A DNA stretch of 64,000 nucleotides from Corynebacterium cystitidis. GTDB lineage: Bacteria; Actinomycetota; Actinomycetes; Mycobacteriales; Mycobacteriaceae. The notes beneath the pieces are model-generated. The model was not told the origin of the DNA, ran no database searches, and saw only the letters and a program-made list of their open reading frames with translations. A program made the translations under genes and the position numbers. Of the stretch, positions 6,094 through 42,898 are shown piece after piece (within the stretch, counting starts at the first letter, position 1; each line of letters begins with the position of its first letter). The stretch spans positions 2,604,001-2,668,000 of the forward strand of contig NZ_LT906473.1 of assembly GCF_900187295.1 (NCBI RefSeq). The letters are read 5' to 3'.

Positions 6094-7035
6094 ATGTTCA
6101 GCTCCACATCCCGCAGCGCTCCGGGCGCGCTGAAGAAAGTAGCAGGCCAGGCACGGTTCTTCGCCACAGCTTTGCGCCCCACCGCGAGCCGTAAACCAGC
6201 GTGGTCGGGCGCACCCGTGGCCGGCACCCGGATAGCTGGCTTCACCCAAGACAAGGCCAACTTGGCTGCCTACCAGGACCTTTGTGGGTTTGACCGTAGT
6301 GAGTACGTGCCGGCCACCTGGCTGCACGTGCAAACCTTCGCCCTGCAAACCGAGATCATGTCCAGCCGCGACTGGCCCTTCCCCGTCTTGGGCACGGTGC
6401 ACGTGGCTAACCTGATGCGGCAGTTCCGTCCCGTGCATATCGACGAAGAACTCAACATCGGTGTGCAGGTAGGCCAGCTGTATCCCCACGCCAAGGGCAC
6501 TATCACCACGATGTCGTGCACCGTCGAGACCGGACGCGAGCTGGTGTGGGCGGGCCACAGCGACTACCTCATCCCCCGCTACGACATCCCAGGCCAGCAT
6601 GTGCAGGTCGAGCGCGAAAATGTACCCGATGCCCAGCCGAGCGCCCGCCTCGAGGTTCCCGCGGGTTTGGGCAGGCAGTACGCCAAGGTCACCGGTGACT
6701 TTAACCCGATCCACCTCGGGGCCGCCAGCGCGAAACTCTTTGGATTTAAGTCTGCCATCGCCCACGGCATGTGGACGCACGCCTGGGCGCTCGCCCAGCA
6801 AGAAGACGTGCTGCCCGCGGCGTACGAGACACGCGTGCAGTTCACAAAGCCCGTGCCGCTTCCGTCGGCGGTGAACTTCGTGCGCGAGACCGCCACCGAT
6901 CATTCTGCTGCTGGAACTGCTGCTGGTACTGCTGCTGGTACTGTGCGCTACGGTGTGATCAACGATGAAGGAAACCCCCACCTGGCAGGGCATATCCGCC
7001 CACTTGATCCGCGTGAGATGGGCCGCCCGGCGTAG
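6094..7035 (+). CDS. htdX: MaoC-family 3-hydroxyacyl dehydratase/enoyl hydratase, HtdX-like
   Basis: Double-hotdog MaoC protein of 313 residues. The C-terminal hotdog carries the R-specific hydratase motif, seen as GDFNPIHLGAASAKLFGF followed by AIAHGMW. It interconverts enoyl-CoA/ACP and 3-hydroxyacyl-CoA/ACP and so completes the set with FadE5, FadA2 and FabG4. An oddity near the C-terminus is a 12-bp tandem repeat (GCTGCTGGAACT or GCTGCTGGTACT, three copies, 6907-6942) that encodes AAGT-AAGT-AAGT in frame; this looks like recent slippage in a surface loop. Confidence 0.88.
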   Translation: MFSSTSRSAPGALKKVAGQARFFATALRPTASRKPAWSGAPVAGTRIAGFTQDKANLAAYQDLCGFDRSEYVPATWLHVQTFALQTEIMSSRDWPFPVLGTVHVANLMRQFRPVHIDEELNIGVQVGQLYPHAKGTITTMSCTVETGRELVWAGHSDYLIPRYDIPGQHVQVERENVPDAQPSARLEVPAGLGRQYAKVTGDFNPIHLGAASAKLFGFKSAIAHGMWTHAWALAQQEDVLPAAYETRVQFTKPVPLPSAVNFVRETATDHSAAGTAAGTAAGTVRYGVINDEGNPHLAGHIRPLDPREMGRPA

Positions 7036-26598: not shown

Positions 26599-27336
26599 AT
26601 GATTAAGGTAAAGGATTTCTCCTTAAGCTACGGCAACCACGAAATTGTCAAAGGCGCAAGCTTCCAAGCGCACCCTGGTGAAGTAACCGCCCTCATCGGC
26701 AGAAACGGGGCAGGAAAAACCAGCTTGCTTAATCATATCGCTCATCCTTCTCGACGCCATCGCAATACTCACATCACTGGCCACATTGAATCAATTGGTG
26801 TGGTGTCCTATTTGAACCAGCACATCGAGGCAGACTTACCTTTCACTGTTTTTGAGACGATCTTGATTGGCAAGGCAGTGAAACTGGGTTTGCGCACCAG
26901 CCAGGAAGACATTGACGATGTCAACAAGATCGTCGACATGCTGGACCTTCACGAGTTGCAGCACGTCCCCATCGCACATCTCTCTGGTGGGCAACGCCAA
27001 AAAGTGTTCATTGGACAGGCGCTTGCCAAAAAGCCAGAGGTATTGCTTCTCGACGAGCCAACGGCAGCCCTCGATATTGAAAACCAATACCGGATCATGC
27101 ACCAGATCAAGGATCTCACTATCGAACACAACCTGACTACCTTAGTCTGCCTCCACCAGATTGATTTAGTGGAAAGATTCGCTGATCGGGTGATCGTTCT
27201 CCACAATGGCTCCATCTACAAAGAGGGCAACCCCAACGAGGTATTCACTAAAGAACTCTTTCACGAGGTCTATGCCGTGGACGCAACGATGGCTACCGTA
27301 GATGAGCGCCTCCTTTTCGGATTCGACGTCAGCTAA
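26599..27336 (+). CDS. Iron ABC transporter ATP-binding protein
   Basis: ATPase of 245 residues with Walker A LIGRNGAGKTSL (about residue 36), Q-loop around YLNQH, signature HLSGGQRQKVFIGQAL, Walker B VLLLDEPTAALD and switch His in LVCLHQIDL. The FecE/FhuC class energises FecCD permeases. It is the last gene of the three-gene operon; insertion-sequence debris starts about 40 bp later. Confidence 0.93.
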   Translation: MIKVKDFSLSYGNHEIVKGASFQAHPGEVTALIGRNGAGKTSLLNHIAHPSRRHRNTHITGHIESIGVVSYLNQHIEADLPFTVFETILIGKAVKLGLRTSQEDIDDVNKIVDMLDLHELQHVPIAHLSGGQRQKVFIGQALAKKPEVLLLDEPTAALDIENQYRIMHQIKDLTIEHNLTTLVCLHQIDLVERFADRVIVLHNGSIYKEGNPNEVFTKELFHEVYAVDATMATVDERLLFGFDVS

Positions 27337-27375
27337 CCTTTAGCAATCCCCCGCCCAGCCCGGCATCCGCGCGGC

Positions 27376-27496
27376 GTACCTTAAAGAAAATGAGCGCGAA
27401 AGGTGTGTGGTTCCTCAAATTTAAAGATCACGATTGTAATGGGTTAACGCCAGATGGCATCGTGCAAAGAAACTGCGTAAACTGCTTGCCCTGGCA
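27376..27496 (+). pseudogene. IS630-family transposase fragment (copy 1, 5' part)
   Basis: Bases 27376-27477 repeat 29083-29184 with few differences (KGVWFLKFKDHDCNGLTPDG when translated). The copy is broken here by an IS21-like insertion and resumes at 28355. Confidence 0.7.
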
Positions 27497-27645
27497 ACGA
27501 GTGTTTGCGGCTTAGGTTGGAAAGTGTATTTCTGGGGGTTGGAAAGGGGCAGGGCGTGCGGCGTGGGGCGGGGGTGATTTTCTAGTAGTTGACGGGTGCC
27601 TCGGTGTGTAAGGGGTACCCGCGTTACTAGAAAGGAGTCCGTTGC

Positions 27646-27949
27646 AATGGTGACGGATTATCGGGCGATTATGCTCGCAGTGTTGCGTGGGCATAGTTAT
27701 GCCACGATTCAGCAGAGTTATCAGTGCTCATCGAAAACTGTGCGGTTGGCTAAGGCGGTTGTGCATGACCATGGCTTGACTGAGGTAGATATCCAGGGTC
27801 TAGATCGTCAGCAGTTGGCAGAATTGTTTCCTGACCGGCGTTACGATCGCGACGAGTCGTATGCCGATATTGATATCGAGGGCGTTGATTCGACGCAAGC
27901 GGATTTTCGGGGCGAAGAATCCTGGCAGGAAGTTCAAGGTCAAGGTTGA
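27646..27949 (+). pseudogene. istA-like transposase, N-terminal remnant
   Basis: From MVTDYRAIMLAVLRGHSYAT the frame carries the IstA N-terminal helix-turn-helix (QQSYQCSSKTVRLAKAVV) and DRQQLAELFPDRRYDRDESY, then leaves the family sequence at about 27900 where the internal deletion joins. The DDE catalytic domain is absent. Family calls are from pattern recognition. Confidence 0.65.
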
Positions 27950-28024
27950 ACACGAACGTTACCAGCCGGAGTGTGTGGCACAGGGGCTCAAGCCTTACTC
28001 GTATAAGCACCACACGCAACCCGC

Positions 28025-28228
28025 GTGCTCTTCGAAATCATGGAAGCACGCACCGGCCAAGCAACCGCTATTGTCTCACAGCTCGGTGCCACAGACTGGG
28101 GCAAAGTGATGCTCAACAAAGTCACCGCAGAATCCCCCATCAACCGGATTCTGCACCCATCAACGACCGTGGTGCTCAACGGCGAAGAAAATCTACGCCA
28201 AACCCACCAACCACGAGAAGACCCATAG
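28025..28228 (+). pseudogene. istB-like helper ATPase, C-terminal remnant
   Basis: LFEIMEARTGQATAIVSQLG, ATDWGKVMLNKVTAES and INRILHPSTTVVLNGEENLR match the end of IstB (sensor/arginine-finger region). The P-loop part is deleted. It lies just inside the right end of the IS21-like element. Confidence 0.65.
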
Positions 28229-28354
28229 TCTTCGACACGTCCCCGCGCAACTCAATGTGCGGGGACTACCCCCAGACCCACACTTTCCAAACCCCAGAAT
28301 CACGCTTTCCAATCAACAGAAAAACACTTTCCAACAACCGCTGCGCACAACGAG

Positions 28355-28555
28355 TTTGCCCACATTTATTCTAGTGTGGATTTCACCGTACGCGCCTGAT
28401 CACAACCCGATTGAAAAAGTATCGAATGAAGCCAAGGCCGCAATTGCGAACCGACAATGCGATGACCTTGCAGTAACAACCATAGAGTTCCGTGTTCGCT
28501 TGGGGTGTTTTTCGCACCATTGCTTTCCAAAAGGTTCTTAGGCAGTACGATGGTT
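28355..28555 (+). pseudogene. IS630-family transposase fragment (copy 1, 3' part)
   Basis: Continues copy 1 after the IS21-like insertion. YAPDHNPIEKVSNEAKAAIA (28399-28458) is the DDE C-terminal signature of IS630 transposases. From 28386 on it is nearly identical to 29258 onward. Confidence 0.75.
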
Positions 28556-28556
28556 T

Positions 28557-28630
28557 GAGCGCCACGGCCTTTCATTCAGGCTCTCTCTATTTTTTGGAAA
28601 GTGTCTGGCTTATTCGGTTGCCGTGGCGCC
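28557..28630 (+). other. CRISPR-repeat-like element, copy 1
   Basis: GGCCTTTCATTCAGGC (28566-28581) equals the last 16 bases of the CRISPR repeat except for one base (C for G). A 35-base spacer-sized stretch (28582-28616) follows, then GTTGCC (28617-28622), which differs at one base from the repeat's first six. Outer GCGCCACGGC and GCCGTGGCGC are inverted repeats. The repeat's own hairpin is not kept. See the findings for the crRNA-like regulator hypothesis. Confidence 0.5.
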
Positions 28631-28682
28631 CCAAAAGCCTTATCTGTCTACTCTCTATATTTATTGGAGAGTACGAGAGGAG

Positions 28683-28710
28683 TTGCACTTTAATGTCTAA
28701 CGTGTATCAT
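28683..28710 (+). promoter_or_regulatory. Duplicated cas-type promoter (copy 1)
   Basis: TTGCAC (28683-28688), 16 bases, TATCAT (28705-28710). It is the counterpart of the csb1 promoter at 29555-29582 and faces the small ORF at 28824. Confidence 0.6.
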
Positions 28711-28823
28711 CAAGGTTAGCAGTGATGCATACAATCCGATTCTATGGATCGGTGGACAAAAGAATCAGCGCCATGCTCTATGCGCGGAGGCTTAGCACAC
28801 AACGAAGGGAGAGGAGGGCTGAG

Positions 28824-28973
28824 ATGGCTGGATCTACTCACGGTGATCACCGCCGCAAAGAAGAAACCCGCCTAGAAAAGCCAAGAGCTTTTGCTAGCCG
28901 GGTTCTGGCCGTAGTTACATCCAAACTTCTTGCGGATTTGATCAGCAAGAGCTGGGACTGGATGAACTCATAG
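28824..28973 (+). CDS. Small 49-residue protein of unknown function
   Basis: The ATG at 28824 follows a strong ribosome site (GGGAGAGGAGGGCTGAG). The product starts MAGSTHGDHRRKEETRLEKP, is basic in the first half and ends in an amphipathic helix rich in Leu/Val with two Trp (SWDWMNS). I recognise no family. It is the first frame downstream of the duplicated cas-type promoter and the repeat-like element, and a weak hairpin with a T-rich tail follows. It could be a small toxin or a chance frame. An upstream in-frame start at 28722 lacks a good ribosome site. Confidence 0.45.
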   Translation: MAGSTHGDHRRKEETRLEKPRAFASRVLAVVTSKLLADLISKSWDWMNS

Positions 28974-28984
28974 GTCAAAAGAAA

Positions 28985-29025
28985 GGATCACTCGTTGACG
29001 CCGGGTGACCTTCTTGCTTGTTTCT
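28985..29025 (+). terminator. Possible terminator after the small ORF
   Basis: GGATCACTCG and CGGGTGACC pair imperfectly and are followed by a T-rich tract (TTCTTGCTTGTTTCTC). Confidence 0.35.
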
Positions 29026-29082
29026 CTTTGCCCTAGGGCATCTCAAGTCTAACCCGCGAGCAGAAAGCTAGCAAGCAAACGG

Positions 29083-29425
29083 GTACCTTACAGAAAATGA
29101 GCGCGAAAGGTATGTGGTTCCTCAAATTTAAAGATCACGATTGTAATGGGTTAACGCCAGATGGCATCGTGCAAAGAAACTACGTGAGATTCTTGGCCAG
29201 ATCAGTCAGGAGTTTGCTCATATTCACCTCGTCTGGCTTCCACCTGTTTAGCTTCCCCCGTACGCGCCTGATCACAACCCGATTGAAAAAGTATCGAATG
29301 AAGCCAAGGCCGCAATTGCGAACCGACAACGCGATGACCTTGCAGCAACAACCATAGAGTCCCGTGTTCGCTTAGGGTGTTTTTCGCACCATTGCTTTCC
29401 ACAAGGTTCTTAGGCAGTACGATGG
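29083..29425 (+). pseudogene. IS630-family transposase fragment (copy 2)
   Basis: Reads KFKDHDCNGLTPDG, then (in frame) REILGQISQEFAHIHLVWLP and, after a 16-base interruption TGTTTAGCTTCCCC, YAPDHNPIEKVSNEAKAAIA. The interruption and a missing N-terminus make it a pseudogene. It is longer and less damaged than copy 1 and ends just before the second repeat-like element. Confidence 0.78.
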
Positions 29426-29430
29426 TTTGA

Positions 29431-29502
29431 GCGCCACGGCCTTTCATTCAGGCTCTCTCTATTTTTTGGAAAGTGTCTGGCTTATTCGGTTGCCGTGGCG
29501 CC
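29431..29502 (+). other. CRISPR-repeat-like element, copy 2 (upstream of csb1)
   Basis: Same structure as 28557-28630: repeat 3'-end match GGCCTTTCATTCAGGC (29438-29453), an identical 35-base stretch (29454-29488), then GTTGCCGTGGCGCC (29489-29502). CTCTCTAT at positions 2-9 of the stretch recurs at 29523-29530, about 25 bp upstream of the csb1 -35 box. Confidence 0.5.
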
Positions 29503-29554
29503 CCAAAAGCCTTATCTGTCTACTCTCTATATTTATTGGAGAGTACGAGAGGAC

Positions 29555-29582
29555 TTGCACTTTAGTTTTTTAAGTGTATTAT
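29555..29582 (+). promoter_or_regulatory. cas operon promoter
   Basis: TTGCAC (29555-29560), 16-base spacer, TATTAT (29577-29582). The predicted transcript starts about 29589, so the csb1 leader is about 85 bases. Confidence 0.65.
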
Positions 29583-29590
29583 CAAGTTCA

Positions 29591-29627
29591 GCACCGATCC
29601 ATACAATTCGATTCTATGGATTGGTGC
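29591..29627 (+). promoter_or_regulatory. Inverted repeat in the cas leader
   Basis: GCACCGATCCATA and TATGGATTGGTGC form 13-base arms (one G-T pair) around an 11-base loop, just downstream of the promoter. It may be a repressor operator or an RNA hairpin. The counterpart at 28722-28755 has degraded arms. Confidence 0.6.
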
Positions 29628-29672
29628 GACAACAAGATTCCGATTTTCAAACAAGAGTTCTAAGGAGATTTC

Positions 29673-30878
29673 ATGTTGAACTATCAAGATCTGCTTGATG
29701 CTTGCTCCCGGGGTGGCGCCAGTGTGCTTACCTCCGTCACCGAGATGGAACCGGCTGCAGGCCCCCACGCTTCTGTGGCACCAGCAAAGTTTGTCGAGCG
29801 GTCGAACTCAGTATTCGCATTCGAAACCCGTTACATCGACGGCGAACCACAAACCATTGCTCTACTCGACTCCAAGCAGTCGTCCCTCAACCGCGCAGAA
29901 CAAGCCATCCAGCAGGATATTGACGCAGGCTTTGCACCTATTTCGCAGGTCCCCCGCATTGTGGTGGATTACGGCGAAGGCGGGCAACTGACGGACATGG
30001 AGCTTCCCCACCGCTTCGCAGACGGCCATATCCGTGCCGGCACCATTGATGGCGAACCAGCCACTAAGAATGATTCATACCGGGCGGTGCGCAACTCCAC
30101 CCAGGGAAATATCACGGCACTTGTCCAAACAGCACCAGCAGCGGCAGTTTTTGGTGGTTGGGATTCTACCCGTGCGACCAACCAGCTCCGCCTTCCTAGC
30201 GCTTTGGTTGGTGAGGTTATAGGCGTCTTGGCAGATCAGGATGCCACTGGTGAAGAACAGCAGTCTAAGCGTGGTGGTGCGCGTGTCGATTCCCTAGCAA
30301 TGAGTGTCAAACTCACCGGCCCGCAGATGAAGGAGCTGCTAGATGCACAGCGTGAAGAGCTAAGCCCTACCAAGGTGGGCGAGATTGAAAAGAAAATTAA
30401 GTCCGAGAAGAAAGGCACAATCTCGGCTTCGTCGCTTGGGCTGGGAGGAATTCCACCAAAACTTGAGTCTTTAGGTGGCGTGTCCTGTAAACGAATCATT
30501 CGCACTTGGGTTTTGAGTTTTGCCGCTCTGCGTCAACTTCGTTTCGGGGGCAGCTATGAGCAAGATGTTGCTGGGCGCGCACTCCTTGCCGCATTTGGGT
30601 TAGCTGCGATGGCACGTGCGGAGGAGGAAAACTACTTGCGCGCAAACTGTCACCTCGTCGAAAAGAGCGCACCACAAGTGATCCTGGATCAGCGCCACGG
30701 AGAATCTAAGGAGTTTAGCGCTCTCACCGTAAAGGAGGCAGACAAGCTTCTAGCTACCGCTATTGAAGAAGCGCGCAAGCTCGGTGTTGTTGATTGGTCC
30801 GGGCAGGTTCTTGAAGTTCAGGGTAACCCCATTGTCCTTGGAGGGGCAGTCGAAGAGGCTGAGGATGAACAGAAATGA
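29673..30878 (+). CDS. csb1: Csb1 (Cas7 backbone subunit), type I-G
   Basis: Protein of 401 residues of the GSU0053/Csb1 family, the Cas7-type subunit that coats the crRNA spacer in type I-G (former I-U) Cascade. Recognisable parts are the start LLDACSRGGASVLTSVTEME, AVFGGWDSTR and RLPSALVGEVIGV, and ISASSLGLGGIPPKLESLGG before the C-terminal domain. AAGGAG precedes the ATG by 6 bases. It overlaps csb2 by 4 bp, and the six cas genes form one tightly coupled operon. Confidence 0.88.
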   Translation: MLNYQDLLDACSRGGASVLTSVTEMEPAAGPHASVAPAKFVERSNSVFAFETRYIDGEPQTIALLDSKQSSLNRAEQAIQQDIDAGFAPISQVPRIVVDYGEGGQLTDMELPHRFADGHIRAGTIDGEPATKNDSYRAVRNSTQGNITALVQTAPAAAVFGGWDSTRATNQLRLPSALVGEVIGVLADQDATGEEQQSKRGGARVDSLAMSVKLTGPQMKELLDAQREELSPTKVGEIEKKIKSEKKGTISASSLGLGGIPPKLESLGGVSCKRIIRTWVLSFAALRQLRFGGSYEQDVAGRALLAAFGLAAMARAEEENYLRANCHLVEKSAPQVILDQRHGESKEFSALTVKEADKLLATAIEEARKLGVVDWSGQVLEVQGNPIVLGGAVEEAEDEQK

Positions 30879-32425
30879 CCAAACTTGAACTACGGGTCCG
30901 ATTCCCCCTCTGGATATACCAGGCCCACAGAGACGACAAATCTCCCAGCTGGATGCCTGATCCTGCCCGGCTGCACAGCGCTTTTCTCAACGCAGCGGCG
31001 CAGGGTTCCCTCGCCGAACCTGATGGAGCCACTGCCCTCAAACCGTCGGAGGAGTCCCTCACAGCGCTACGTTGGCTTGAGGCCAACGCCCCCGATGGCA
31101 TTGAGGAGCCCCAGAAACGCTGGTGCGCTCCGAACTCCGGACGATTCGCGTACCGTAAAGTCACTTCTGGCACTAACTCCGAAATTCAACAGCGCCCCGT
31201 CTCAGACGGTGTGGCTGTAAACGGAAGTTACGGTTATCTGTGGAACGATGTTCCCGAAGCAGTTGCTAGTACTCTTACCGCGTTAAGCGAAGATATCGGC
31301 TACCTCGGGGAGGCATCAAGTGTCGCGATTGTAGAACCTGGGCCTGTCAACCCCACGTTAGTGAAAGACTCTTCAGCATCAGCCTTTGATAGCGGGGGCA
31401 GCTTTGTCCGTATTCCCCAACGAGGGCGCACGGACTATCTCATAGCTCGCCACAAGTCATACTATCCGGAGAAACCGCCCACGGTTGCCAAAGATAGATG
31501 GACTGCGAGTGAAAAACCTCGCGACAGGGAACCAGCGGAAGAATTCTTGTCTAAGGTGATGTACCGAGTACCGGCCGTTCAGCCGCCGGACACCCCCTGG
31601 TCTCATGTACTCCTTTTCCAAATCGACCGTCAGAACGTTCCGGTAAAACATCGGGTAGAGCTGTGTGTCACCATGCATAAGGCACTGATTAGCGCAATCG
31701 GTTTTGGTGCGTCGCCGATGGTGACGGGTAAGTATGAGCGCCAGGTGAAGCAACGCCCTGCTAACCGGCTGGCAATCCAGTATTTTGACAGCAGCTACGT
31801 ACAACGGCATGGGGTGCACGGTGCTGCCCTGGGCCTGATGATCCCACGGGATGCAGATGATCAGCAATTGGCGCAGATTGCGCAAGCTCTTTCCGCTATT
31901 TCAGTTTTGTGGTCGCGGAACTTGGGGCGGGTCCGAGTCACCTTCGATGGTGTTAGTGTGGCGGCTGATAAATTTTGGGCCGCCCCGGCTGATGGCCACG
32001 TACGGCTCTGGTCTGCAGATACAGCGATCATTCCAGAGACTCGACCAGTGTCGAAGAAAGCGCTAAATCGCCCATGGACCTTGGAAGACGCTGGTTTATT
32101 GTCGCTCGGTTTTGTGTGGCGTGATGAGTTCGAGATTGTAGGAAAAGGTGAGCACATGTACGCCCACCTACGCAATCAAGTAGCAGGTTCTCAGGCGCGT
32201 GTGTATAAGGCCTCAACGTTAGGCGATGCTGCTGCGTCATATGTGCACAGGACCCACACCAACGTGCCGGTTCAGCCGTGGAATGGATTACTGAGCCTGG
32301 GCAACCTTGCCAATGCGCAAACGCTTGTTGCTATCGGCCAATCACGCCATCTTGGTGGGGGATTACTCGTCCCGGTCGATCTTCCACGCCAGTTGCTCCA
32401 ATCGCTGAATAAGCAGGAGGTTTAG
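30875..32425 (+). CDS. csb2: Csb2 (Cas5-Cas6 fusion), type I-G
   Basis: Protein of 516 residues of the GSU0054/Csb2 family. The N-terminal part is Cas5-like and holds the crRNA 5' handle (PDPARLHSAFLNAAAQG near residue 28). The C-terminal part is Cas6-like and processes pre-crRNA: note HGVHGAALGLMIPRDADDQQ and the last third, with His residues that could be catalytic. No separate cas6 exists in the locus, which fits a fusion. It starts within the end of csb1 (ATGA) and ends 2 bp before cas3. Confidence 0.85.
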   Translation: MTKLELRVRFPLWIYQAHRDDKSPSWMPDPARLHSAFLNAAAQGSLAEPDGATALKPSEESLTALRWLEANAPDGIEEPQKRWCAPNSGRFAYRKVTSGTNSEIQQRPVSDGVAVNGSYGYLWNDVPEAVASTLTALSEDIGYLGEASSVAIVEPGPVNPTLVKDSSASAFDSGGSFVRIPQRGRTDYLIARHKSYYPEKPPTVAKDRWTASEKPRDREPAEEFLSKVMYRVPAVQPPDTPWSHVLLFQIDRQNVPVKHRVELCVTMHKALISAIGFGASPMVTGKYERQVKQRPANRLAIQYFDSSYVQRHGVHGAALGLMIPRDADDQQLAQIAQALSAISVLWSRNLGRVRVTFDGVSVAADKFWAAPADGHVRLWSADTAIIPETRPVSKKALNRPWTLEDAGLLSLGFVWRDEFEIVGKGEHMYAHLRNQVAGSQARVYKASTLGDAAASYVHRTHTNVPVQPWNGLLSLGNLANAQTLVAIGQSRHLGGGLLVPVDLPRQLLQSLNKQEV

Positions 32426-32427
32426 CC

Positions 32428-35100
32428 GTGGAAAAGTTAACTATTGATGATTTCGACGATTTTTTCCGAGCGCTTAACGACGATAATTTGCCCTTCACGT
32501 GGCAGCGTGATGTCGTAGAACATGTGCTAAATCATGGGCGCTGGCCGGACAGGATCACCGCCCCTACCGGATCTGGTAAGTCTTTTGTCACCGATGCTCA
32601 CGTTTTCGTTAACGCTGCACAGTCGACGTATGGTGTGCGTGTTCCTCGACGGCTTCATGCGGTTGTAAATAGGCGCGGTCTGGTGGATAGCCAAGCAATA
32701 AGGGCTGATTATATTAAAGACAGGCTAGAGGCTGCCCCAGCAGATTCGATCTTAGGTGCGGTGGCGGCTAACCTTCGTCTTTTGCGGAGCGATTCTGCCG
32801 ATACCCCTCTAGAGGTGGGACATCTTCGCGGCAATTTGGTTAATCGTACGCTTCCGGTTGATGATCCTACTGCGTGCGCTATCGTCGCCGCCACCCCGGA
32901 TATGTGGGGCTCTCGTCTTTTGTTCAGAGGATATGGTAGTTCGGTGCATGCCCGTCCGAGAGAAACTGCGTTGATTTCCATGGATTCAGTTTTAATCTTG
33001 GATGAAGCACATCTGAACAGACAGCTTCTGTTCACCGCGCGACGTGTAGCGGATCTTCAATCGCGTTACCCAACAATCGGCGTTCCTACGCTTCAGGTAG
33101 TGGAAACTACAGCTACTGCAAGCAGCGATCCAGGTAATGAAGCTGTGAGCATTGATGTCAATCCTGATCAGTTTGATCCTGAACGTGATGCAGCGCTCTC
33201 CGCTCGATTCTTCTCGGCGAAGCAGCTTGAGTTGGTGGAGTTTCAGAAGTGGAATGGTCGGCCAAAGAATAGTGGGCTTACCAAGCTCGTGGTTGAACAA
33301 GCTCTTGAACTGCACCAGGATGCTTCAGCGACGGTTGGTTGCATTGTTAACCATGTCGAAAATGCAACTCAAGTCGCACGGCAACTACAGAATAAAGGCT
33401 TTACTACGGTTTTGTTAGTGGGTCGCATGCGGCCTCATGACGTGACAGAAGTTCGCCGACAGCACCCACACTTATTTGCGTCGAAGACGGACTCTGAGGT
33501 GGATTTTGTGGTGGCAACCCAAACTCTCGAGGTTGGTGTTGATATGGACTTCCACAGCCTAGTTACTGAGCTTGCTCCGGCGTCATCACTTGCACAGCGT
33601 GTGGGCCGCACGAACCGTAACGGACGGTGGGAAAACTCCCAGGTGCGGGTTGTGGTACCCCCAACTGAAGAGGTGATCAAGAATGAACACCCTCCGTATT
33701 CCGGTGAGGATTTGGTAAACGGCTTACGCTGGCTGCACTCTTTGTCTGAATCTCAGTCGATTAATCCTGCTGCGGTTCGTGAGCTCCCGCCTCCTGTTTC
33801 TTCGCCGAAACGCGACTTATTTCAGAGAGTTGAACTATCGGATCTTGGTTTGCTGGCACGCACTAGCGAGAAGTTGTTGGTTCAGCCTGATCTCTCACTG
33901 TGGCTGCGCGACTCCTTGGAACCGGAAACGGCGATGGGTGGCGTTGTTGTTCGCGAGTTTCTTCCTTCCACAGATTCGGTTGCCTTGGAGCTGTTGAAGG
34001 CTCTGCCGCCGCTTGCTGATGAGGTTTTTCCCGCTTCGCTGAATATACTGAGCCAGATTAAACAGCAACTTGTGCTCGAACCTCGTGACAGGTTTAAAGC
34101 CGAGTTAAAGGATACGCTCAAACGTCGTTTGTTTTTGTATCGTGATAATGAAATGACATTGATGGATATTAATGATCATTTAAAACCCGGCGATATCGTG
34201 GTTCTTGATCCCGGGTTGCGGTTTACCTCAGAGAATGTCGCTGTCATTGAACCAACGGATACTCCTCCCGCTCAGGTCCCTCATCCTGACGTATCGCGGT
34301 TAGTTATCGCCGAGCATGCCGACGAGAGCGATGTAGCTTGGCTGCGTGACTTTGTTGGCCTTACCCCTGAAGAAGCCACTCAGGCGTTGAACGAAGAAGG
34401 CTATGAAGGAGAGGTGGTGCTTTCCGCAAGCACCACTGAGCGTGGAAGCTCTGAGGTTGTGAGCTGGTTTTTTGTTAAGCCACCTGCTTCAGAGCTTTCC
34501 GACGAAATCCGTCAGGAATGGTCTTCTTCACAGGGGCAAGTGCTTCTTTCGGATCATGCTGACGATGTGGCGCAACGTGCCCGATTGATGGCTGAAAAAC
34601 TTGATGTGATTGATGAGTTGGTCGATGTTGTTGCTGAGGTCGGTTTGCACCATGATGATGGCAAGGCTGACCCAAGGTTCCAGATCCGTTTGGGCAATAA
34701 TAGTGGCTCTGTAGTTTTGGCCAAAAGCAAGCGGCGTTCTCAACAACAAGTTCAACTGAGCCGGGCGCGCAGTGGTCTTCCTACTGGGTGGAGGCATGAG
34801 CAGCTGTCAGCTCTGATGTGTTTTGACCAGTCAACCGGTGACGGAAAGTATCGCGATTTGGTCACATACCTTGTTGGAACAAGCCATGGGCATGGTCGTT
34901 CATCGTTTAACCATGTCGCATCCGAGTTACTGGCGACGGAAGATTCTTCGCTTTACTCGAATGCTGAGCAACTTTTTTCGGTTGGTGACTGGGAGCACAT
35001 GGTCTCCAATTTGAATCATCAGTTTGGCCATCATAATTTGGCTTTCCTTGAAGCTGTGCAACGCGCTGCTGATGCCCAAGTATCAAAGGAGGGTAAGTAA
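32428..35100 (+). CDS. cas3: Cas3 helicase-nuclease, type I-G (C-terminal HD)
   Basis: Nuclease-helicase of 890 residues that degrades the displaced DNA strand after Cascade binding. The helicase part has Walker A APTGSGKSF (about residue 50), LILDEAH (DEAH box, about 195), VATQTLEVGVDMDF and VGRTNRNGR (motif VI). The HD nuclease is at the C-terminus, seen as AEVGLHHDDGKADPRFQ (about residue 735), with a later His-Gly-His in GTSHGHGRSSF. This domain order is typical for I-G and differs from the usual N-terminal HD. The start is GTG. Confidence 0.92.
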   Translation: MEKLTIDDFDDFFRALNDDNLPFTWQRDVVEHVLNHGRWPDRITAPTGSGKSFVTDAHVFVNAAQSTYGVRVPRRLHAVVNRRGLVDSQAIRADYIKDRLEAAPADSILGAVAANLRLLRSDSADTPLEVGHLRGNLVNRTLPVDDPTACAIVAATPDMWGSRLLFRGYGSSVHARPRETALISMDSVLILDEAHLNRQLLFTARRVADLQSRYPTIGVPTLQVVETTATASSDPGNEAVSIDVNPDQFDPERDAALSARFFSAKQLELVEFQKWNGRPKNSGLTKLVVEQALELHQDASATVGCIVNHVENATQVARQLQNKGFTTVLLVGRMRPHDVTEVRRQHPHLFASKTDSEVDFVVATQTLEVGVDMDFHSLVTELAPASSLAQRVGRTNRNGRWENSQVRVVVPPTEEVIKNEHPPYSGEDLVNGLRWLHSLSESQSINPAAVRELPPPVSSPKRDLFQRVELSDLGLLARTSEKLLVQPDLSLWLRDSLEPETAMGGVVVREFLPSTDSVALELLKALPPLADEVFPASLNILSQIKQQLVLEPRDRFKAELKDTLKRRLFLYRDNEMTLMDINDHLKPGDIVVLDPGLRFTSENVAVIEPTDTPPAQVPHPDVSRLVIAEHADESDVAWLRDFVGLTPEEATQALNEEGYEGEVVLSASTTERGSSEVVSWFFVKPPASELSDEIRQEWSSSQGQVLLSDHADDVAQRARLMAEKLDVIDELVDVVAEVGLHHDDGKADPRFQIRLGNNSGSVVLAKSKRRSQQQVQLSRARSGLPTGWRHEQLSALMCFDQSTGDGKYRDLVTYLVGTSHGHGRSSFNHVASELLATEDSSLYSNAEQLFSVGDWEHMVSNLNHQFGHHNLAFLEAVQRAADAQVSKEGK

Positions 35101-36140
35101 TGTATTCGATTCAGATTGCTGGTGATGCCCAGTCCACGTTGACCCACTTTGCCCTATACGGTCTTGCAGGCATTGTGCAGTATGAATTGAACCAGCCAGT
35201 GTTGGTTTCTTTCACGTCCGAGGTAGATCCAAAAGCAGTTCTCGAGACCACTGCCGGTGAAACTGAGGTGGCCGAAGCTGTTTTGCACGTGGCAAAGAGG
35301 TGGTCCGAACCGGGGTCCTGGGCTCAAGACACAATGGCTTATCCGGATAAGAAGAAAAGCGTAGAGCGCTCGCCTTTCTCGCCACGTATTCAGGTGATTG
35401 ACTCCCGTGACACTTGGATAGCCCACCAGGAGTTTCGCCACAGGCATATTGACCAATTGGAGCAAGCGGGTGATCGTCTGGCTTTGCGTCTGATCGCTGG
35501 TTTGGGTGAAGCGTCATATTGGCGGTTCCAGGGAAAGGATCGTAGGCCAGATCATGGAGCTTCCCGTTGGGAAATGAAGACCCGCAACCGTGGTGAAGAG
35601 TTCATTGTGCACCGGTTTGCACCGATGTGTTCAGAACTAAGCTCGTGGTCTTCTGAAGACATTCTTGCTGGAATTACAGGTACTCAGGTCAACGATACTC
35701 TGGGCAAGCAGAAAGCGGACTCGCGTACTGCTACCGGTCTTACTACGCCTCGAGCGACCGATGTGGCCTTAGCTTTTTGCGGTCTTGTCGGTTTAGGATG
35801 CTTTCCGGTTTTACACCAATCAACAGAGTTATCTGTCACTCCAGCTGCGTATCCACAAAATGTCTTACACACTAGGCACATGGTCCTTCCGGTTCCTGCA
35901 CAACCAATCACATTATCGCGGTTGGAAGCTGTGTTGGTGTCTGAGGCCCTTTCCCACGCATCGCAAAAGTATTCCGATGAAAGGGCTGAGGATGAGAACG
36001 AAACGTTAGAGGTAACTGCTGCGCAGGATTGGTTAAGAGCGCGTGGGATGGGCGCGTTAGTGCACTTCTCGGTGCTAAAGGCCGGGTCTGATAGTGCCCC
36101 AGAACGCCAGGTTCTCACCGGAAGGATTGAGGCGTTATGA
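35100..36140 (+). CDS. csb3: Csb3-like subunit, type I-G (Cas8-type large subunit)
   Basis: Protein of 346 residues in the slot where type I-G loci carry csb3 or the longer csx17. Length and position between cas3 and cas4-cas1 favour Csb3, which is taken as the large-subunit (PAM-recognition) component. No motif is decisive; GLVGLGCFPVLHQ and RDTWIAHQEFRHRH may be conserved. The ATG overlaps the cas3 stop (TAATG) and its own end overlaps cas4-cas1 by 4 bp. Confidence 0.75.
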   Translation: MYSIQIAGDAQSTLTHFALYGLAGIVQYELNQPVLVSFTSEVDPKAVLETTAGETEVAEAVLHVAKRWSEPGSWAQDTMAYPDKKKSVERSPFSPRIQVIDSRDTWIAHQEFRHRHIDQLEQAGDRLALRLIAGLGEASYWRFQGKDRRPDHGASRWEMKTRNRGEEFIVHRFAPMCSELSSWSSEDILAGITGTQVNDTLGKQKADSRTATGLTTPRATDVALAFCGLVGLGCFPVLHQSTELSVTPAAYPQNVLHTRHMVLPVPAQPITLSRLEAVLVSEALSHASQKYSDERAEDENETLEVTAAQDWLRARGMGALVHFSVLKAGSDSAPERQVLTGRIEAL

Positions 36141-37741
36141 GTACTCCCGTAGATGGGTCCGTCCCCATCAGTTTGGTACTACACACCAAGTTTTGCCCTC
36201 GTAGAACCTGGCTGGAGGCAAACGGGGAGGTTACTGACACCTACCAGATGCAGGCCGGGCATCAAGGCCACCGCCGTGTTGATGATCCAACTTCTTCACG
36301 TCCGCATCAGTTAAGGCAGCTTGCAATCAGTGATCCGGCTCTTGGCATTCACGGCCGTGCTGATGTCGCTGAACCTGAGTCTGATGGATCGATTCATGTT
36401 GTGGAGTACAAGACTGCTCCTCTGCGTGATGTTGTTGCCGCTACTCCTGCCCACAAGGTTCAGCTGGCTTTGCAAACCATGTGCCTTGAGTCTGCTGGTC
36501 ACCGTGTAAGTAGGGCGACTGTGCGGTTTGTGGATTCCCGCCTTTCGGAAGAGGTTCCGATTACGGATGAACTTCGCGCTCAGGCAGTGGAGCTTGTCGA
36601 CGAAACACGCCAGATAATTGCGTCGCCGACCGCTCCGGCTCCTCTGATTGATGATGCGCGCTGTAGTAAATGTTCTCATATGCCGGTGTGTCTTCCTGAT
36701 GAAAAGCAAGGAGTGCCTGTTCGCAGAAGGATCAATGCAAAGAAACCTGTTGGCAGCGTCATTCATCTCACGGAGCAGGGTTCGCGCTGCTCTGTGAAAA
36801 CGGGGCGACTCATTGTCAAGAAACGGGGTGAAGAGCTAGGTTCTGTTCCCTTGGGCCGAGTCGATGGCGTAACAGTGCATGGAAATGTCGATGTCTCTAG
36901 TGCTGCGATTAGGGAATTAAGCTGGCACCAGAAAGCGGTGGTGTGGTGCTCGTTTAGTGGCAGGGTGTATAGCTGGACGCAACCGGCGTCGAGCCCTAAT
37001 GGGTTATCTCGATCACGGCAGCATGAGCTTGCAAGTGATGATTTCCTGTCCCTGGCCAAGCAGATGATTGAAACCAAAATTTCTAATCAGCGGACTTTGC
37101 TTCGGCGCAATGGTGACTGCCCAAGGCCCGTTGAAGATCTAGCCATCCTGACACAACAGGTAGATGCGGCAATTTCGCGTAATGAACTTTTTGGTATTGA
37201 AGGGGCTGCAGCAAAAGCGTATTTTTCCGGATTTACGTCGATGCTAAAGCATGGTGCTAAGAACAAGTACCAGTTTGATTTCCCCGGGAGGGAGGGGCGT
37301 GGCTCTATCGATCCGATAAATGTTTTACTCAATTATGCGTATGGAATGCTGACTAGCGAATGCTTGCGGGCACTAGTTTCGATCGGTCTAGACCCTCATA
37401 TCGGTGTGCTCCACAGCAGCTATCGGAATAAGCCAGCGCTTGCTTTGGATCTCATGGAGGAGTTCCGACCTACTATCGCAGATTCTGCCATTATCAGTCT
37501 GCTGAACCGCAGAGAGTTTCCGCTGGACGGTTTTGTAAGTAATGATTTAGGCACCCGTCTGACTAAGGACGGCAGGAGGGCGGTAATTGAGGCGGTTGAA
37601 ACACGGCTCTCAACGGAGTTCAATCATCCCGTCTACGATTACAAAGTTACCTGGCGGCGTGCGATTGAGGTGCAAGCCCGACAGGTTTTAGCTCTACTTG
37701 AGGGTTCTCAAGAGCGTTACTTTGGGGTTCGGGTGAGATAG
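36137..37741 (+). CDS. cas4-cas1: Cas4-Cas1 fusion, CRISPR adaptation
   Basis: Fusion of 534 residues. The N-terminal Cas4 part (about 1-195) has the iron-sulfur cysteines (FCPRRTWLEANG and CSKCSHMPVC) and the RecB-type nuclease motif VVEYKTAP; it trims prespacers and selects the PAM side. The C-terminal Cas1 part (about 205-534) has metal-binding Glu in GIEGAAAKAYFSGF, His in GVLHSSYRNKPALALDLMEE and the trailing acidic residue. This fusion is a hallmark of type I-G/I-U. It overlaps csb3 by 4 bp and cas2 by 1 bp. Confidence 0.95.
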   Translation: MSTPVDGSVPISLVLHTKFCPRRTWLEANGEVTDTYQMQAGHQGHRRVDDPTSSRPHQLRQLAISDPALGIHGRADVAEPESDGSIHVVEYKTAPLRDVVAATPAHKVQLALQTMCLESAGHRVSRATVRFVDSRLSEEVPITDELRAQAVELVDETRQIIASPTAPAPLIDDARCSKCSHMPVCLPDEKQGVPVRRRINAKKPVGSVIHLTEQGSRCSVKTGRLIVKKRGEELGSVPLGRVDGVTVHGNVDVSSAAIRELSWHQKAVVWCSFSGRVYSWTQPASSPNGLSRSRQHELASDDFLSLAKQMIETKISNQRTLLRRNGDCPRPVEDLAILTQQVDAAISRNELFGIEGAAAKAYFSGFTSMLKHGAKNKYQFDFPGREGRGSIDPINVLLNYAYGMLTSECLRALVSIGLDPHIGVLHSSYRNKPALALDLMEEFRPTIADSAIISLLNRREFPLDGFVSNDLGTRLTKDGRRAVIEAVETRLSTEFNHPVYDYKVTWRRAIEVQARQVLALLEGSQERYFGVRVR

Positions 37742-38040
37742 TGAGGGACGATCTTCGACGAACTTTGGTCGCGTACGATATTCCACATGACCGTCGCCGT
37801 ACAAAAGCTGCCCAAACATTGTTGACCTACGGAGACCGAGTACAATATAGCGTGTTCATCGTCGACTGCATCCCCGCTCAGCTGCTGCGGCTCAAGGAGC
37901 AACTGCGGGAAATCATCAATACGGATGAAGACTCCGTGTTATTTTGCGATATCGGTTTGGTGGCAACTCTTCAAAAGACGAATTATTCTTACTTGGGGTT
38001 AGAACCTAAGTTAACTAGCGACGGGCCCCTGATCTTCTGA
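37741..38040 (+). CDS. cas2: Cas2, CRISPR adaptation
   Basis: Ferredoxin-fold protein of 99 residues that dimerises and bridges two Cas1 dimers during spacer integration. LVAYDIPHDRRRTKAAQTL holds the conserved Asp; YSVFIVDCIPAQLLRLKEQL follows. The start is GTG overlapping the Cas1 stop (TAGTG). It is the last cas gene; the leader follows. Confidence 0.95.
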   Translation: MRDDLRRTLVAYDIPHDRRRTKAAQTLLTYGDRVQYSVFIVDCIPAQLLRLKEQLREIINTDEDSVLFCDIGLVATLQKTNYSYLGLEPKLTSDGPLIF

Positions 38041-38237
38041 CTTGAGCCCCAAGCATATTGATGCGAGAGCCACACGATTGCAATTGAGTGCGGCACGCGC
38101 TCGCAGCTTAAAACAGCTGGTTACGCGCTGGATTTGCGATTTTCCACATCACTGATGTGCCAAAAACTCACCAAATTCTGCTTGCACTCGCAACTACCGA
38201 CATATACGCTGGAAGCGCCCCTATTTTATTCGGTGCT
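38041..38237 (+). promoter_or_regulatory. CRISPR leader
   Basis: About 197 bp between cas2 and the first repeat. Near the array, TTGCAC (about 38182) is followed by TATACG, which resembles the -35 of the cas promoter. The leader ends TTTTATTCGGTGCT before the first repeat; TTATTCGGT also ends the spacer-like stretch of the two elements upstream of csb1. It must be the integration end because the degenerate repeat is at the far end. Confidence 0.7.
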
Positions 38238-41200
38238 GTCGCCACTGTTTCGGCAGTGGCCTTTCATTGAGGCGGGCAGGTTAGATGGGCCTGGGGCGCA
38301 GTCGCATGGTGTCGCCACTGTTTCGGCAGTGGCCTTTCATTGAGGCGTTATTGACGGCAACACCATCTCTTTTACCGAAGTGTCGCCACTGTTTCGGCAG
38401 TGGCCTTTCATTGAGGCGGGATCTTCCACATCTTCCGGCCAATTCACATCACGTCGCCACTGTTTCGGCAGTGGCCTTTCATTGAGGCCCCAGCTCCCCA
38501 GATGGAGGAAGTGGCAAGTGCGCGTCGCCACTGTTTCGGCAGTGGCCTTTCATTGAGGCCCCATATCAGCAGTGCATGCACCATTTCGCGGTCAAAGTCG
38601 CCACTGTTTCGGCAGTGGCCTTTCATTGAGGCTTTTCAGCAGGTTCTGGTTTCGAAGCGCAATCGGGGTCGCCACTGTTTCGGCAGTGGCCTTTCATTGA
38701 GGCGAAGACTGTAATTCACACAGGCAGGGAAAACCACATGGTCGCCACTGTTTCGGCAGTGGCCTTTCATTGAGGCTGTCTCGAACAACCGGGGACGCCT
38801 TCGCTACCGGAGTGTCGCCACTGTTTCGGCAGTGGCCTTTCATTGAGGCGCCAGACGATCGCTGACGGCGACAGGTACGTGGCGGTCGCCACTGTTTCGG
38901 CAGTGGCCTTTCATTGAGGCCTCAAGTGTGGGCATGGACGAGGTTTATCTCTTGGGTCGCCACTGTTTCGGCAGTGGCCTTTCATTGAGGCCCTGCAGGC
39001 CTTGCGGGCCGGGCGGCCCCGCTGGGTCGCCACTGTTTCGGCAGTGGCCTTTCATTGAGGCGAGATCATCCTTCGATTCGCCGGGGTGTGGAACCAACGT
39101 CGCCACTGTTTCGGCAGTGGCCTTTCATTGAGGCCCGCGTGGCCTATGAGCGATGGAGAGTCGAAGACGATGTCGCCACTGTTTCGGCAGTGGCCTTTCA
39201 TTGAGGCAGACACCCGTGACCATTTATGTGACTCCTCTGACCAGTCGCCACTGTTTCGGCAGTGGCCTTTCATTGAGGCCGTTCACGCACAAACCCGCTA
39301 CGCGCGTGTCCCTGGGTCGCCACTGTTTCGGCAGTGGCCTTTCATTGAGGCATTTCGTACGTTTCCGGCGCGTAGACCTCCCCAGCGTCGCCACTGTTTC
39401 GGCAGTGGCCTTTCATTGAGGCCAGGGAATACGCCCCTCCTGGTCCCCCCAGCCGTTGTCGCCACTGTTTCGGCAGTGGCCTTTCATTGAGGCAACGGCA
39501 GCCACCTCCAACTACCCGGACTCGGCAACGTCGCCACTGTTTCGGCAGTGGCCTTTCATTGAGGCAGTGCGGAAGACCTTGAAAAGCTCAACGGAAAGCT
39601 GTCGCCACTGTTTCGGCAGTGGCCTTTCATTGAGGCCACGAACTTACCCATAGATTTGACTCGCGGTTTGATCGTCGCCACTGTTTCGGCAGTGGCCTTT
39701 CATTGAGGCTGCGTTGACCGCAGCGATTATGATCGAAGCCGAAGCGTCGCCACTGTTTCGGCAGTGGCCTTTCATTGAGGCTCGAAAATCTGCAGGAGGC
39801 GGTTGGTGACGAGCTGGTCGCCACTGTTTCGGCAGTGGCCTTTCATTGAGGCCTAGAACGAGCCGTCACACGCGCCGGGCTGGGAGTCGCCACTGTTTCG
39901 GCAGTGGCCTTTCATTGAGGCTAGTAGCGCGTCGAGTTTTTGGAGCGCGGGGATAAGTCGCCACTGTTTCGGCAGTGGCCTTTCATTGAGGCGTCAGCAA
40001 GTCAGTGACATGCTACCCGTGGTTGAGGTCGCCACTGTTTCGGCAGTGGCCTTTCATTGAGGCTCGAAGTGGTCGAAGATGGGACTGCGTGCGCCTAAGT
40101 CGCCACTGTTTCGGCAGTGGCCTTTCATTGAGGCCAGGTAGGAGGGGTGCGGTTCACGTCCAGGGCTTCCGTCGCCACTGTTTCGGCAGTGGCCTTTCAT
40201 TGAGGCTGGTGCAAGAAAGTCGCGGCTGGCGTTGTGTTGCGTCGCCACTGTTTCGGCAGTGGCCTTTCATTGAGGCTGGTGCAAGAAAGTCGCGGCTGGC
40301 GTTGTGTTGCGTCGCCACTGTTTCGGCAGTGGCCTTTCATTGAGGCCCCAACGTCGAGCCACTATGGGCCGACAAGAAAACAGTCGCCACTGTTTCGGCA
40401 GTGGCCTTTCATTGAGGCGTCCCACCGCGACAGGTTCGCCCCGGCTAGCTCGGTCGCCACTGTTTCGGCAGTGGCCTTTCATTGAGGCTTCTTGGATTTT
40501 GTCTCGGTCGATGATGACCCTTTGGTCGCCACTGTTTCGGCAGTGGCCTTTCATTGAGGCCAGGTAGGAGGGGTGCGGTTCACGTCCAGGGCTTCCGTCG
40601 CCACTGTTTCGGCAGTGGCCTTTCATTGAGGCTTTCGTCAATTGTGACGTTTCTTGCAAGTGCAGCAACGTCGCCACTGTTTCGGCAGTGGCCTTTCATT
40701 GAGGCCCACCCGATCACAACCCCGGTGGAGATTCGTAAGGAGGTCGCCACTGTTTCGGCAGTGGCCTTTCATTGAGGCACTGACGTGACTGGCACGTCTG
40801 CGCATACCTGGATGGGGTCGCCACTGTTTCGGCAGTGGCCTTTCATTGAGGCGGGAACAGGCCTACCGGCGCGCGTCAGCGATTCATCGTCGCCACTGTT
40901 TCGGCAGTGGCCTTTCATTGAGGCGCGCCTCGAGCCCATCAAGTGCCCGGGTCGCCGCAGTCGCCACTGTTTCGGCAGTGGCCTTTCATTGAGGCACTGA
41001 CGTGACTGGCACGTCTGCGCATACCTGGATGGGGTCGCCACTGTTTCGGCAGTGGCCTTTCATTGAGGCAACTCACTCGGCTACCATTCATGGTTCATGT
41101 CACGTCGCCACTGTTTCGGCAGTGGCCTTTCATTGAGGCCAGGTAGGAGGGGTGCGGTTCACGTCCAGGGCTTCCGTCGCCACTGTTTCGGCAGTGGCCT

Positions 41201-41354
41201 TTCATTGAGGCCAGGTAGGAGGGGTGCGGTTCACGTCCAGGGCTTCCGTCGCCACTGTTTCGGCAGTGGCCTTTCATTGAGGCTTCACAGCAGTTGATGA
41301 TCTTGCGCCGGAAGATAAGTTGCCACTGCTTTCGCAGTGGCCTTTCATTAAGGC
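38238..41354 (+). CRISPR. Type I-G CRISPR array, 44 repeats and 43 spacers
   Basis: The 36-bp repeat starts GTCGCCACTG and ends CCTTTCATTGAGGC; GCCACTG and CAGTGGC pair around TTTCGG. I count 44 repeats and 43 spacers of 33-38 bases. All repeats appear identical except the last (41319-41354), which has five or six changes and marks the leader-distal end. Some spacers occur more than once: 40135-40170 recurs at 40561, 41140 and 41212; 40207-40240 recurs at 40277; 40779-40816 recurs at 40996. This leaves 38 distinct spacers. Frames called inside the array are not genes. Confidence 0.98.
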
Positions 41355-41460
41355 AACGATGAAGTTGAAGCGTCATCGCTGTACGTGTTCGCGCACAGCG
41401 CGCCTGCGCCACCAGCACAGGGTGGTTGGCAGGCAGACGCGCAAGCGGTCCCGGTCGGTC

Positions 41461-42898
41461 TTAGGCTGCAGCCGCAGCTTGTTGGTCTTCCTCCTCTACC
41501 CGTGCGGGAGAAGGGATCAGGAAGGAAGCCACCAAAGCTAGCACGATAATAATCGCACCGGTGAGCATTCCTGCCTGGTAACCTGCAGCTTCGCCTTGAG
41601 CTGCTCCCACAGTGGTGTTAACCATGAACAGCAAGGCGAAAGATAGTCCTGCACCGATGTTGAAAGCGCCAGAGTTCATCCCGGGCAGATAGCCCTGGTT
41701 ATCTTTCGGCGAAAGCACAACACCTAAGCCGTTGAGCATGATGTTGCACACACCGGCGTAAGAGATACCAATCCACAGTGACACGATCAGCAATGTGATT
41801 GGCGTGGTATTAGTAACCACATACATGGCAAAGAAGATGCCCAACAACGTGACCACCAACCCGCCTCTCAACACAGATAGATAGCCCAACTTTCCTGCGA
41901 TCTTTCCTGCAATCGGCCCCATGATGAGTCCTGCCAAGGCATAAGGTGTCAGCGTAAACCAAGACACCGTGTCTGCTCCTAGGCCGGCGAACTCAGGTGA
42001 TTGGGCAAGGTTAGGAATCAGCCCATTCATAATGGCGAAAATCCCTGTCATCGTGAGCACTGTGGTGAGGAGCAAACCCCAAGTGCGACGTTGCTTCATA
42101 TAGGTCGTAGTAACCAAGGGGTGCTCGATAGTGGATTCGATCCTCCAGAAAATGAAGAATGCCACTACTCCGACAACCAGCAAGATCCCAACCAAAACGA
42201 AGTTCGCCTGATCTAGCTTGCCCAGCTCATTAAACGCAGTCAGGATTGCACCCAAAGAAACAACCAGGGCGAAAGCCCCACCCCAGTCCATCTTCTGAGA
42301 CTGTTCCCCACGTGTTTCCAGAGTGCCCAAGCGGACAAAGACAATTGCTAATACTGCGACAACAGCCATCGTCCAAAACACGGAACGGAACCCATAGTTC
42401 GCAGCTAGCCAACCACCAGCGAGAGCATCGACACCAGCAATACCGCCGTTGACAGAGGTTAACACCGCCATCCAGAACGCGTAACGCTTCTCATCAGGCA
42501 TTTGGGCGCGCAGCATGATTAAGGCCATGGGCACAATCGGGCCAGAGACACCCTGGATAATGCGGGCCACAAATAACATGTACACATTGACGGACAATGC
42601 GGCGGCTACAGAACCTAGCGCCGTGACCACCAGCATGCCAATCATGATTTTGCGGCGCCCGATAAGATCCCCCCAACGCGGCAACACCAGAGAAAATAGC
42701 GCCGCTGCGGTAAAGAACGCTGTTTGGCTCACACCGATTTGCACCGCTGTCGCGTTCAGCTCACGTTCCATGGTGGCAAGCACCGGCGATAGCATTGACG
42801 CGTTGAGCTGGAAGGCCAGAATGGCAGACAACAACGCCAGAACAAGACCAACAGTACCGGTAGTTCTACGAGTTGTTTCCATAACTTTTGTAGACATG
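41461..42898 (-). CDS. MFS transporter of the pseudouridine locus
   Basis: Major facilitator of about 478 residues with 12-14 membrane helices; motif A is GDLIGRRKIMIG after helix 2, and SQTAFFTAAALFSLVLPRWG precedes it. I chose the ATG at 42898 (MSTKVMETTRR), 3 bp after the psuK stop, because the longer frame runs into psuK. The co-directional psuG-psuK genes suggest that it brings in pseudouridine or another nucleoside, but the sequence resembles drug/H+ antiporters, so the substrate is inferred. Confidence 0.8.

Follow-up and report, generated by a model that had tools for sequence, protein, structure and literature searches.

The window, which is the whole 64-kb stretch of DNA analysed here, comes from a Corynebacterium genome held on a single contig of 3.01 Mb and carries a type I-G CRISPR-Cas operon at 29673-38040 together with its repeat array:

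29673-30878, plus strand: csb1 (Cas7g), the first gene of the operon and the presumed regulated gene
30875-38040, plus strand: csb2 (Cas5-Cas6), cas3g, cas8g, cas4-cas1, and cas2
38238-41354, plus strand: CRISPR array of 44 repeats, the final repeat degenerate

Its placement in Corynebacterium comes from a csb1 search in 242 genomes of the genus and from a named relative, Corynebacterium amycolatum SK46. Csb1, Csb2, and Cas3g all passed their NCBIfam cut-offs (3/3), which together with the repeat array assigns the system to type I-G. Cas8g was identified by PADLOC as a 346-aa protein, and the Cas4g/Cas1g protein of the window scored below its own NCBIfam cut-off and passed the Cas1 and Cas4 models. 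Several spacers between 40136 and 41250 of the array are repeated, one of them being present four times, which suggests duplication inside the array. Its degenerate last repeat (41319-41354) starts with GTTGCC and resembles the second half-repeat of the element described below. When protospacers were sought as a guide to the PAM, the window array had no match in phages or plasmids, and the arrays of two relatives had weak phage matches only, which were left out of the PAM reasoning. Type I-G is the least well understood type I subtype according to the abstract of PMC9638904, and the type I-G PAM known from that paper is TTN, which differs from the TAC in front of the targets described below and speaks against the regulatory reading given there.

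Upstream of the operon lie two copies of a crRNA-like element with the same layout:

28546-28551, plus strand: -10-like box TACGAT of element copy 1, from the TANNNT rule and the sequence
28557-28631, plus strand: crRNA-like element copy 1, made up of arm 1 (28557-28568), CTTTC (28569-28573), the 8-nt handle ATTCAGGC (28574-28581), the guide (28582-28619), and arm 2 (28620-28631)
29418-29423, plus strand: -10-like box TACGAT of element copy 2
29429-29503, plus strand: crRNA-like element copy 2, made up of arm 1 (29429-29440), CTTTC (29441-29445), the handle (29446-29453), the guide (29454-29491), and arm 2 (29492-29503)

The original prediction had singled out GGCCTTTCATTCAGGC at 28566 and 29438 as the last 16 bases of the repeat with one change, an identical stretch followed by GTTGCC in both copies, and a second CTCTCTAT at 28651 and 29523, and the sequence bears out all three. 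No other 16-mer within 3 mismatches of the repeat end was found in the 64-kb window outside the array on either strand, and Rfam gave no match in 27300-41500 of the window. The element occurs only twice in its own genome, both times in the window. Because both copies lie within one duplication (300 nt, 97%), they are not independent, and evidence from relatives was therefore needed. Element and target together (28557-28675) are identical between the copies (0/119 differences), whereas the flanks have diverged, with 9/44 differences in the next 44 nt and 10/172 in 28374-28545 (Fisher p 4e-6 and 0.006, respectively); gene conversion is a possible alternative cause of such identity between diverged flanks.

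A search for csb1 in 242 genomes of the genus gave 13 matches, 11 strong (own genome included) and 2 weak, and the locus stretches of the 12 other matching genomes served as the relatives' sample. As anticipated for related type I-G operons, a similar element was found upstream of csb1 in 11/11 genomes with a strong match, and the handle CTTTCATTGAGGC was present in all 11 with 0-2 changes, 232-345 bp ahead of where the csb1 match starts. The element was not found in either of the two genomes with a weak csb1 match. The window and G040 carry two copies each, so that 13 elements were available; 11 of the 13 copies are oriented toward the operon, and those of G059 and G126 lie on the minus strand. 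L016, apparently a G006 contig already counted, was excluded from these counts. In G040, the element and the promoter were duplicated independently (L021, 14962-15037 and 15967-16042, minus strand), and the interval between the duplicates holds a csb1-like N-terminal fragment.

The repeat hairpin, previously thought lost, turned out to be rearranged: covariation indicates pairing between the strand that precedes the handle and the one that follows the guide. In the window, arm 1 can pair with arm 2 across the guide in both copies (28557-28568 with 28620-28631; 29429-29440 with 29492-29503), and in all elements the pre-handle strand has a possible pairing partner 38-39 nt behind the handle, one G040 copy having 7 contiguous pairs only. 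The second, identical window copy was left out of the alignment, and in the 12-bp helix of the 12 distinct elements 94.4% of positions are paired, with both-side changes in 12/12 pairs. Its covariation is 0.71, against 0.27 for shuffled and at most 0.22 for slid alignments, in an alignment trimmed to the best-pairing place and thus biased in favor of the stem. The RNA fold of the window element has a z of -4.2. With the order running from the last strand of repeat 1 through handle and guide to the first strand of repeat 2, the element amounts to a circularly permuted repeat, and we regard the permuted stem as a near-certain pairing.

A TANNNT box starts 10-15 nt before arm 1 in 13/13 elements, compared with 7.9% of random places. 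The RNA probably starts near arm 1, judging by this -10-like box, and such a start would probably leave the customary 5′ half of repeat 1 untranscribed. We did not find the mini-CRISPR anatomy of a guide between two pseudo-repeats that each have the repeat hairpin. What remains is two half-repeats, 3′ from repeat 1 and 5′ from repeat 2, paired across the guide, and in sequence the element looks like a two-repeat mini-CRISPR reduced to just these halves. Csb2 of Thioalkalivibrio is described as cutting 4 nt past the stem, leaving 8 nt (PMC9638904), and in the window element CTTTC stands between the stem and the final 8 nt. We infer that Csb2 could also cut the permuted form, possibly 5 nt past the stem, in which case the 8-nt handle, guide, and stem may be kept as a nicked crRNA. 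Many guides, including those of L018, L020, L022, and L099, have a small stem-loop at approximately positions 14-31, mildly enriched in 19 guides over 155 array spacers (p 0.0026). Its position varies, however, and in most guides it is no better than in shuffles, so that we make no claim for it.

The sites facing the two guides are as follows:

28649-28675, plus strand: PAM TAC (28649-28651) and target positions 1-24, at promoter 1
28683-28710, plus strand: promoter 1 as read by eye, TTGCAC, 16 nt, TATCAT
29521-29547, plus strand: PAM TAC (29521-29523) and target positions 1-24, at the csb1 promoter
29555-29582, plus strand: csb1 promoter as read by eye, TTGCAC, 16 nt, TATTAT

The gapped match proposed at these promoters was off in its register. 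The guide matches its target without gaps, mismatched only at positions 6, 12, and 18 in the first 21 nt and then from 22 on, and these positions fit the structure of the type I-G Cascade, in which a kink takes one base in six out of the pairing (PMC9638904). The elements were scored by a target rule of a TA[CA] PAM plus identity at guide positions 1-5 and 7, TAA having been added after its sighting in G040. The elements' own guides passed this rule at their own promoters in 13/13 cases (TAC 12, TAA 1), against 8/2015 tests with array spacers, 83/26000 with shuffled guides, and 0/150 with the guides of other species. At the level of sequence, this co-change of guide and target strongly supports the proposal that a crRNA-like RNA may guide Cascade to the csb1 promoter and to a second promoter.

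When sites were instead ranked by identity over 24 nt, with neither PAM nor seed rule, 12 of the 13 best matches were the same sites on the plus strand, behind TAC (11) or TAA (1). Relative to csb1, these 12 sites stand at -146 to -183, or else they belong to the duplicate promoters, and positions 1-5 and 7 are never mismatched in them. In this ranking, shuffled guides equalled the match in 42, 24, and 314 of 500 cases for L023, L025, and L020, respectively; the best 24-nt site for L020 was a wrong one and was rejected, the correct site being recovered by the PAM-plus-seed rule. Position 6 is mismatched in 12/13. This mismatch could arise by chance, and the signal is the absence of mismatches at 1-5 and 7. 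The seed of CreA is given as positions 1-5 and 7-11 (PMC8501985).

The target pattern TACTCTCTNTATTTNTT occurs exactly in the 3.01-Mb genome at the two promoters only, and with 2 mismatches at four more sites, two of which are the guides themselves. By our reading of the promoters, the guide footprint covers the -35-like TTGCAC, and the -10-like box stands 16 nt further on. Neither of these promoters was listed by a consensus promoter scan, which returned 2 promoter-like sites against 1.5 expected, its own candidate for csb1 being TTATCA-17-TACAAT at 29579-29607.

The element model, R1, was then run over the 242 genomes at E < 1e-5 with stricter filters. Besides the 11 genomes already known, it picked up one more copy in G051 and a solitary copy each in G218, G109, and G017. 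Matches with E > 1e-4 are mostly array repeats; of the rest, the two examined, L102 and L103, look like chance. The additional copies are:

6637-6711, minus strand, of L099 (G051 contig 37): extra copy in G051
252-326, minus strand, of the IMG/VR virus L105: the same stretch
5850-5924, plus strand, of L098; 6155-6229, minus strand, of L100; 5899-5970, minus strand, of L101: solitary copies in three Corynebacterium genomes

The extra copy of G051, on a prophage or virus contig, sits among genes that we read by eye as lysis-type. Its guide shares its first 8 nt with the host element, and of the 13 regions just 1, the csb1 promoter of its host, satisfies the PAM and seed rule, with an overall match of only 12/24 there. 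Pattern scans of IMG/VR returned 13 different loci, of which L105 is real and 12 look like chance by model and eye. The solitary copies of G218, G109, and G017 have similar guides, lie near a gene that we take to be gluQRS-like, and belong to genomes with no csb1 family match. G218 has a single exact PAM-plus-seed site genome-wide, which lies on the opposite strand, 52-65 bp upstream of the G218 element itself; no such exact site was found in the G017 genome or within the 12 kb scanned in G109.

Taken together, these patterns lead us to read the element as a putative CreR-like autorepressor gene for type I-G, to which we assign a probability of about 0.88. Covariation shows that arms 1 and 2 form a duplex across handle and guide, standing at the usual distance before the handle and taking its partner strand from behind the guide. 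By analogy with CreA and CreR, Cascade (Csb1, Csb2, and Cas8g) carrying the guide would bind TAC and the partly matching site at the csb1 promoter, blocking transcription there without cutting. The operon would thus be silenced by its own idle Cascade in a negative feedback and released when crRNAs or anti-CRISPRs occupy Cascade. Judging by its arrangement, the duplicate copy would subject a peptide gene to this control as well.

As far as is known, CreRs have complete repeats, and Liu et al. 2023 reportedly found CreR in types I-B, I-E, and V-A. Shmakov et al. 2023 are said to have described CRISPR repeat-like elements and phage mini-arrays, including standalone repeats with guides against cas promoters; our element resembles these in being a standalone repeat with a cas-promoter guide that also occurs in phages. 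In the literature searched, we found CreR for other types and none for type I-G, and no repeat hairpin paired across the guide; an earlier mention of type I-G may exist in Liu 2023 or Shmakov 2023. CreR is presented in two reviews as a cas-regulating crRNA-like RNA (PMC12737573, PMC12948488). The window shares with it a crRNA-like element by the cas genes, with a repeat-derived handle and a guide partly complementary to the cas promoter at PAM and seed, and a presumed autorepression. It departs from CreR in its type I-G setting, the hairpin permuted across the guide, TAC before the targets, and a duplicate facing a peptide gene. CreTA/CreA is likewise described with degenerate repeat(s), a seed at 1-5 and 7-11, a promoter target, and Cascade-guided repression (PMC8501985, PMC9458426), the last being predicted here, and the passages concerned do not bring up a stem that spans the guide. 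CreA stands guard over an RNA toxin; in our elements csb1 is the target that recurs throughout, and a possible toxin, in this case a peptide, is faced by copy 1 of the window only. The prophage copy (L099/L105) resembles the Racr phage RNA anti-CRISPRs, described as solitary crRNA-like units in phages behind a promoter (PMC10651486). RacrIF1 is reported there to compete via an aberrant Cas subcomplex; L099/L105 in addition matches the csb1 promoter of its host in PAM and seed.

The inverted arms might instead serve as a DNA operator bound by a protein or form a hairpin in the leader of the csb1 mRNA, the likeness to the repeat being a fossil with no guide function. Their position upstream of csb1 and the orientation of 11/13 elements toward the operon would suit such a role, and no T-run was seen after the window stem, so that transcription may continue into csb1. 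This account leaves unexplained why the handle is retained and why guide and promoter share PAM and seed in 13/13 cases despite the sequence differences between species. Moreover, the arm sequences vary freely while their pairing is kept, unlike a protein operator, and the elements of G059 and G126 lie on the opposite strand. We consider this reading improbable. Even less credit goes to a former mini-array or an anti-CRISPR-like decoy that only competes for Cascade, with the promoter match as a by-product of spacer uptake from its own locus. The prophage copy and the solitary copies in csb1-free genomes are what one would expect of mobile or decaying pieces, but a decoy requires no target, and the guide-target match is kept in 11 genomes with mostly different guides.

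We give almost no weight to an IS630 terminal repeat or a chance likeness, even though both copies come after IS630-like transposase remains (DDE_3 below its cut-off) within the duplication. The original prediction had allowed that the stretch might be the terminal inverted repeat of IS630 copies elsewhere; the own genome holds only the two in the window rather than copies at multiple IS ends, and ten other genomes carry the same element with different arms and guides, so this candidate was rejected. Separately, the first IS630-like remnant is interrupted by a decayed insertion at 27516-28335, bounded by 31-nt ends that are 87% complementary (GTTGGAAAGTGT...).

Returning to the putative CreR-like autorepressor, its two window copies differ in what they face. 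Copy 2 faces csb1, and copy 1 faces a small peptide gene that lies behind promoter 1 and part of the csb1 leader and has relatives in the same genome:

28824-28973, plus strand: 49-aa peptide gene behind promoter 1
406489, 483710, 2446863, and 2778211 of the own genome (G000:C1): further members of the peptide family

The four further members are 50-63% identical, making five in the own genome, and the other 241 genomes gave two doubtful matches only. The 3′ part of the coding sequence is common to 5/5 members and the ribosome site to 4/5. The window gene keeps its start and ribosome site and is followed by a terminator-like hairpin. The peptides, of approximately 50 aa, have conserved 3′ ends and a C-terminal half that looks amphipathic. 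No family model matched the 49-aa peptide, and one family member had no match in plasmids or phages. The peptide may be a membrane-active toxin, in which case its gene and copy 1 might together form an addiction module. We nevertheless lean toward a meaningless tandem duplication at this place, a view that concerns the toxin part only. The similar duplication in G040 leaves merely a csb1-like fragment behind copy 1, which argues for an accident; the peptide lacks a family match, and its toxicity is a reading of sequence alone. On the other hand, copy 1 keeps its element and target intact and identical to copy 2 despite the diverged flanks, which gene conversion could also bring about, and the peptide gene has kept its start, ribosome site, and terminator-like hairpin and has its four relatives.

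A broader combination of these ideas seems to us rather doubtful as a whole: that type I-G uses circularly permuted crRNAs as regulators, with Csb2 accepting guide-flanking strands and the nicked guide RNA binding promoters without triggering Cas3; that the RNA also holds down a toxic peptide, so that loss of Cascade would derepress cas and poison the cell; and that a prophage of a related species captured the RNA to shut the host operon. If the regulatory reading is true, RNA-guided CRISPR self-control would extend to type I-G. The permuted stem would yield a sharp biochemical prediction, namely, cleavage by Csb2 of a hairpin formed by strands on either side of the guide. The TAC that recurs in front of the targets suggests a PAM that this type I-G branch can use. 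The elements would also provide endogenous type I-G systems with natural, species-specific switches and would bear on whether phages copy such switches.

Outside the genus, PF09617 matched 18 of 397 genomes of the order (own included), and the other 17 provided 19 loci. A handle-independent scan of these gave one convincing case, L061 (TAC, 20/24), a suggestive one, L058 (TAC, 17/24), and a weaker one, L054 (TTC, 17/24); the latter two are not proof because other loci reach 16-17/24 with no such PAM or handle. Benchmarked on the 11 known Corynebacterium loci, the scan ranked the right pair top in 6 and gave nothing or a wrong pair in 4, with the true pair of the window outside the top 3, and its silence at the remaining 16 loci therefore means little. 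An array-like run of R1 matches was also seen at G232:C1:2380332-2380693, in a genome with no csb1 match.
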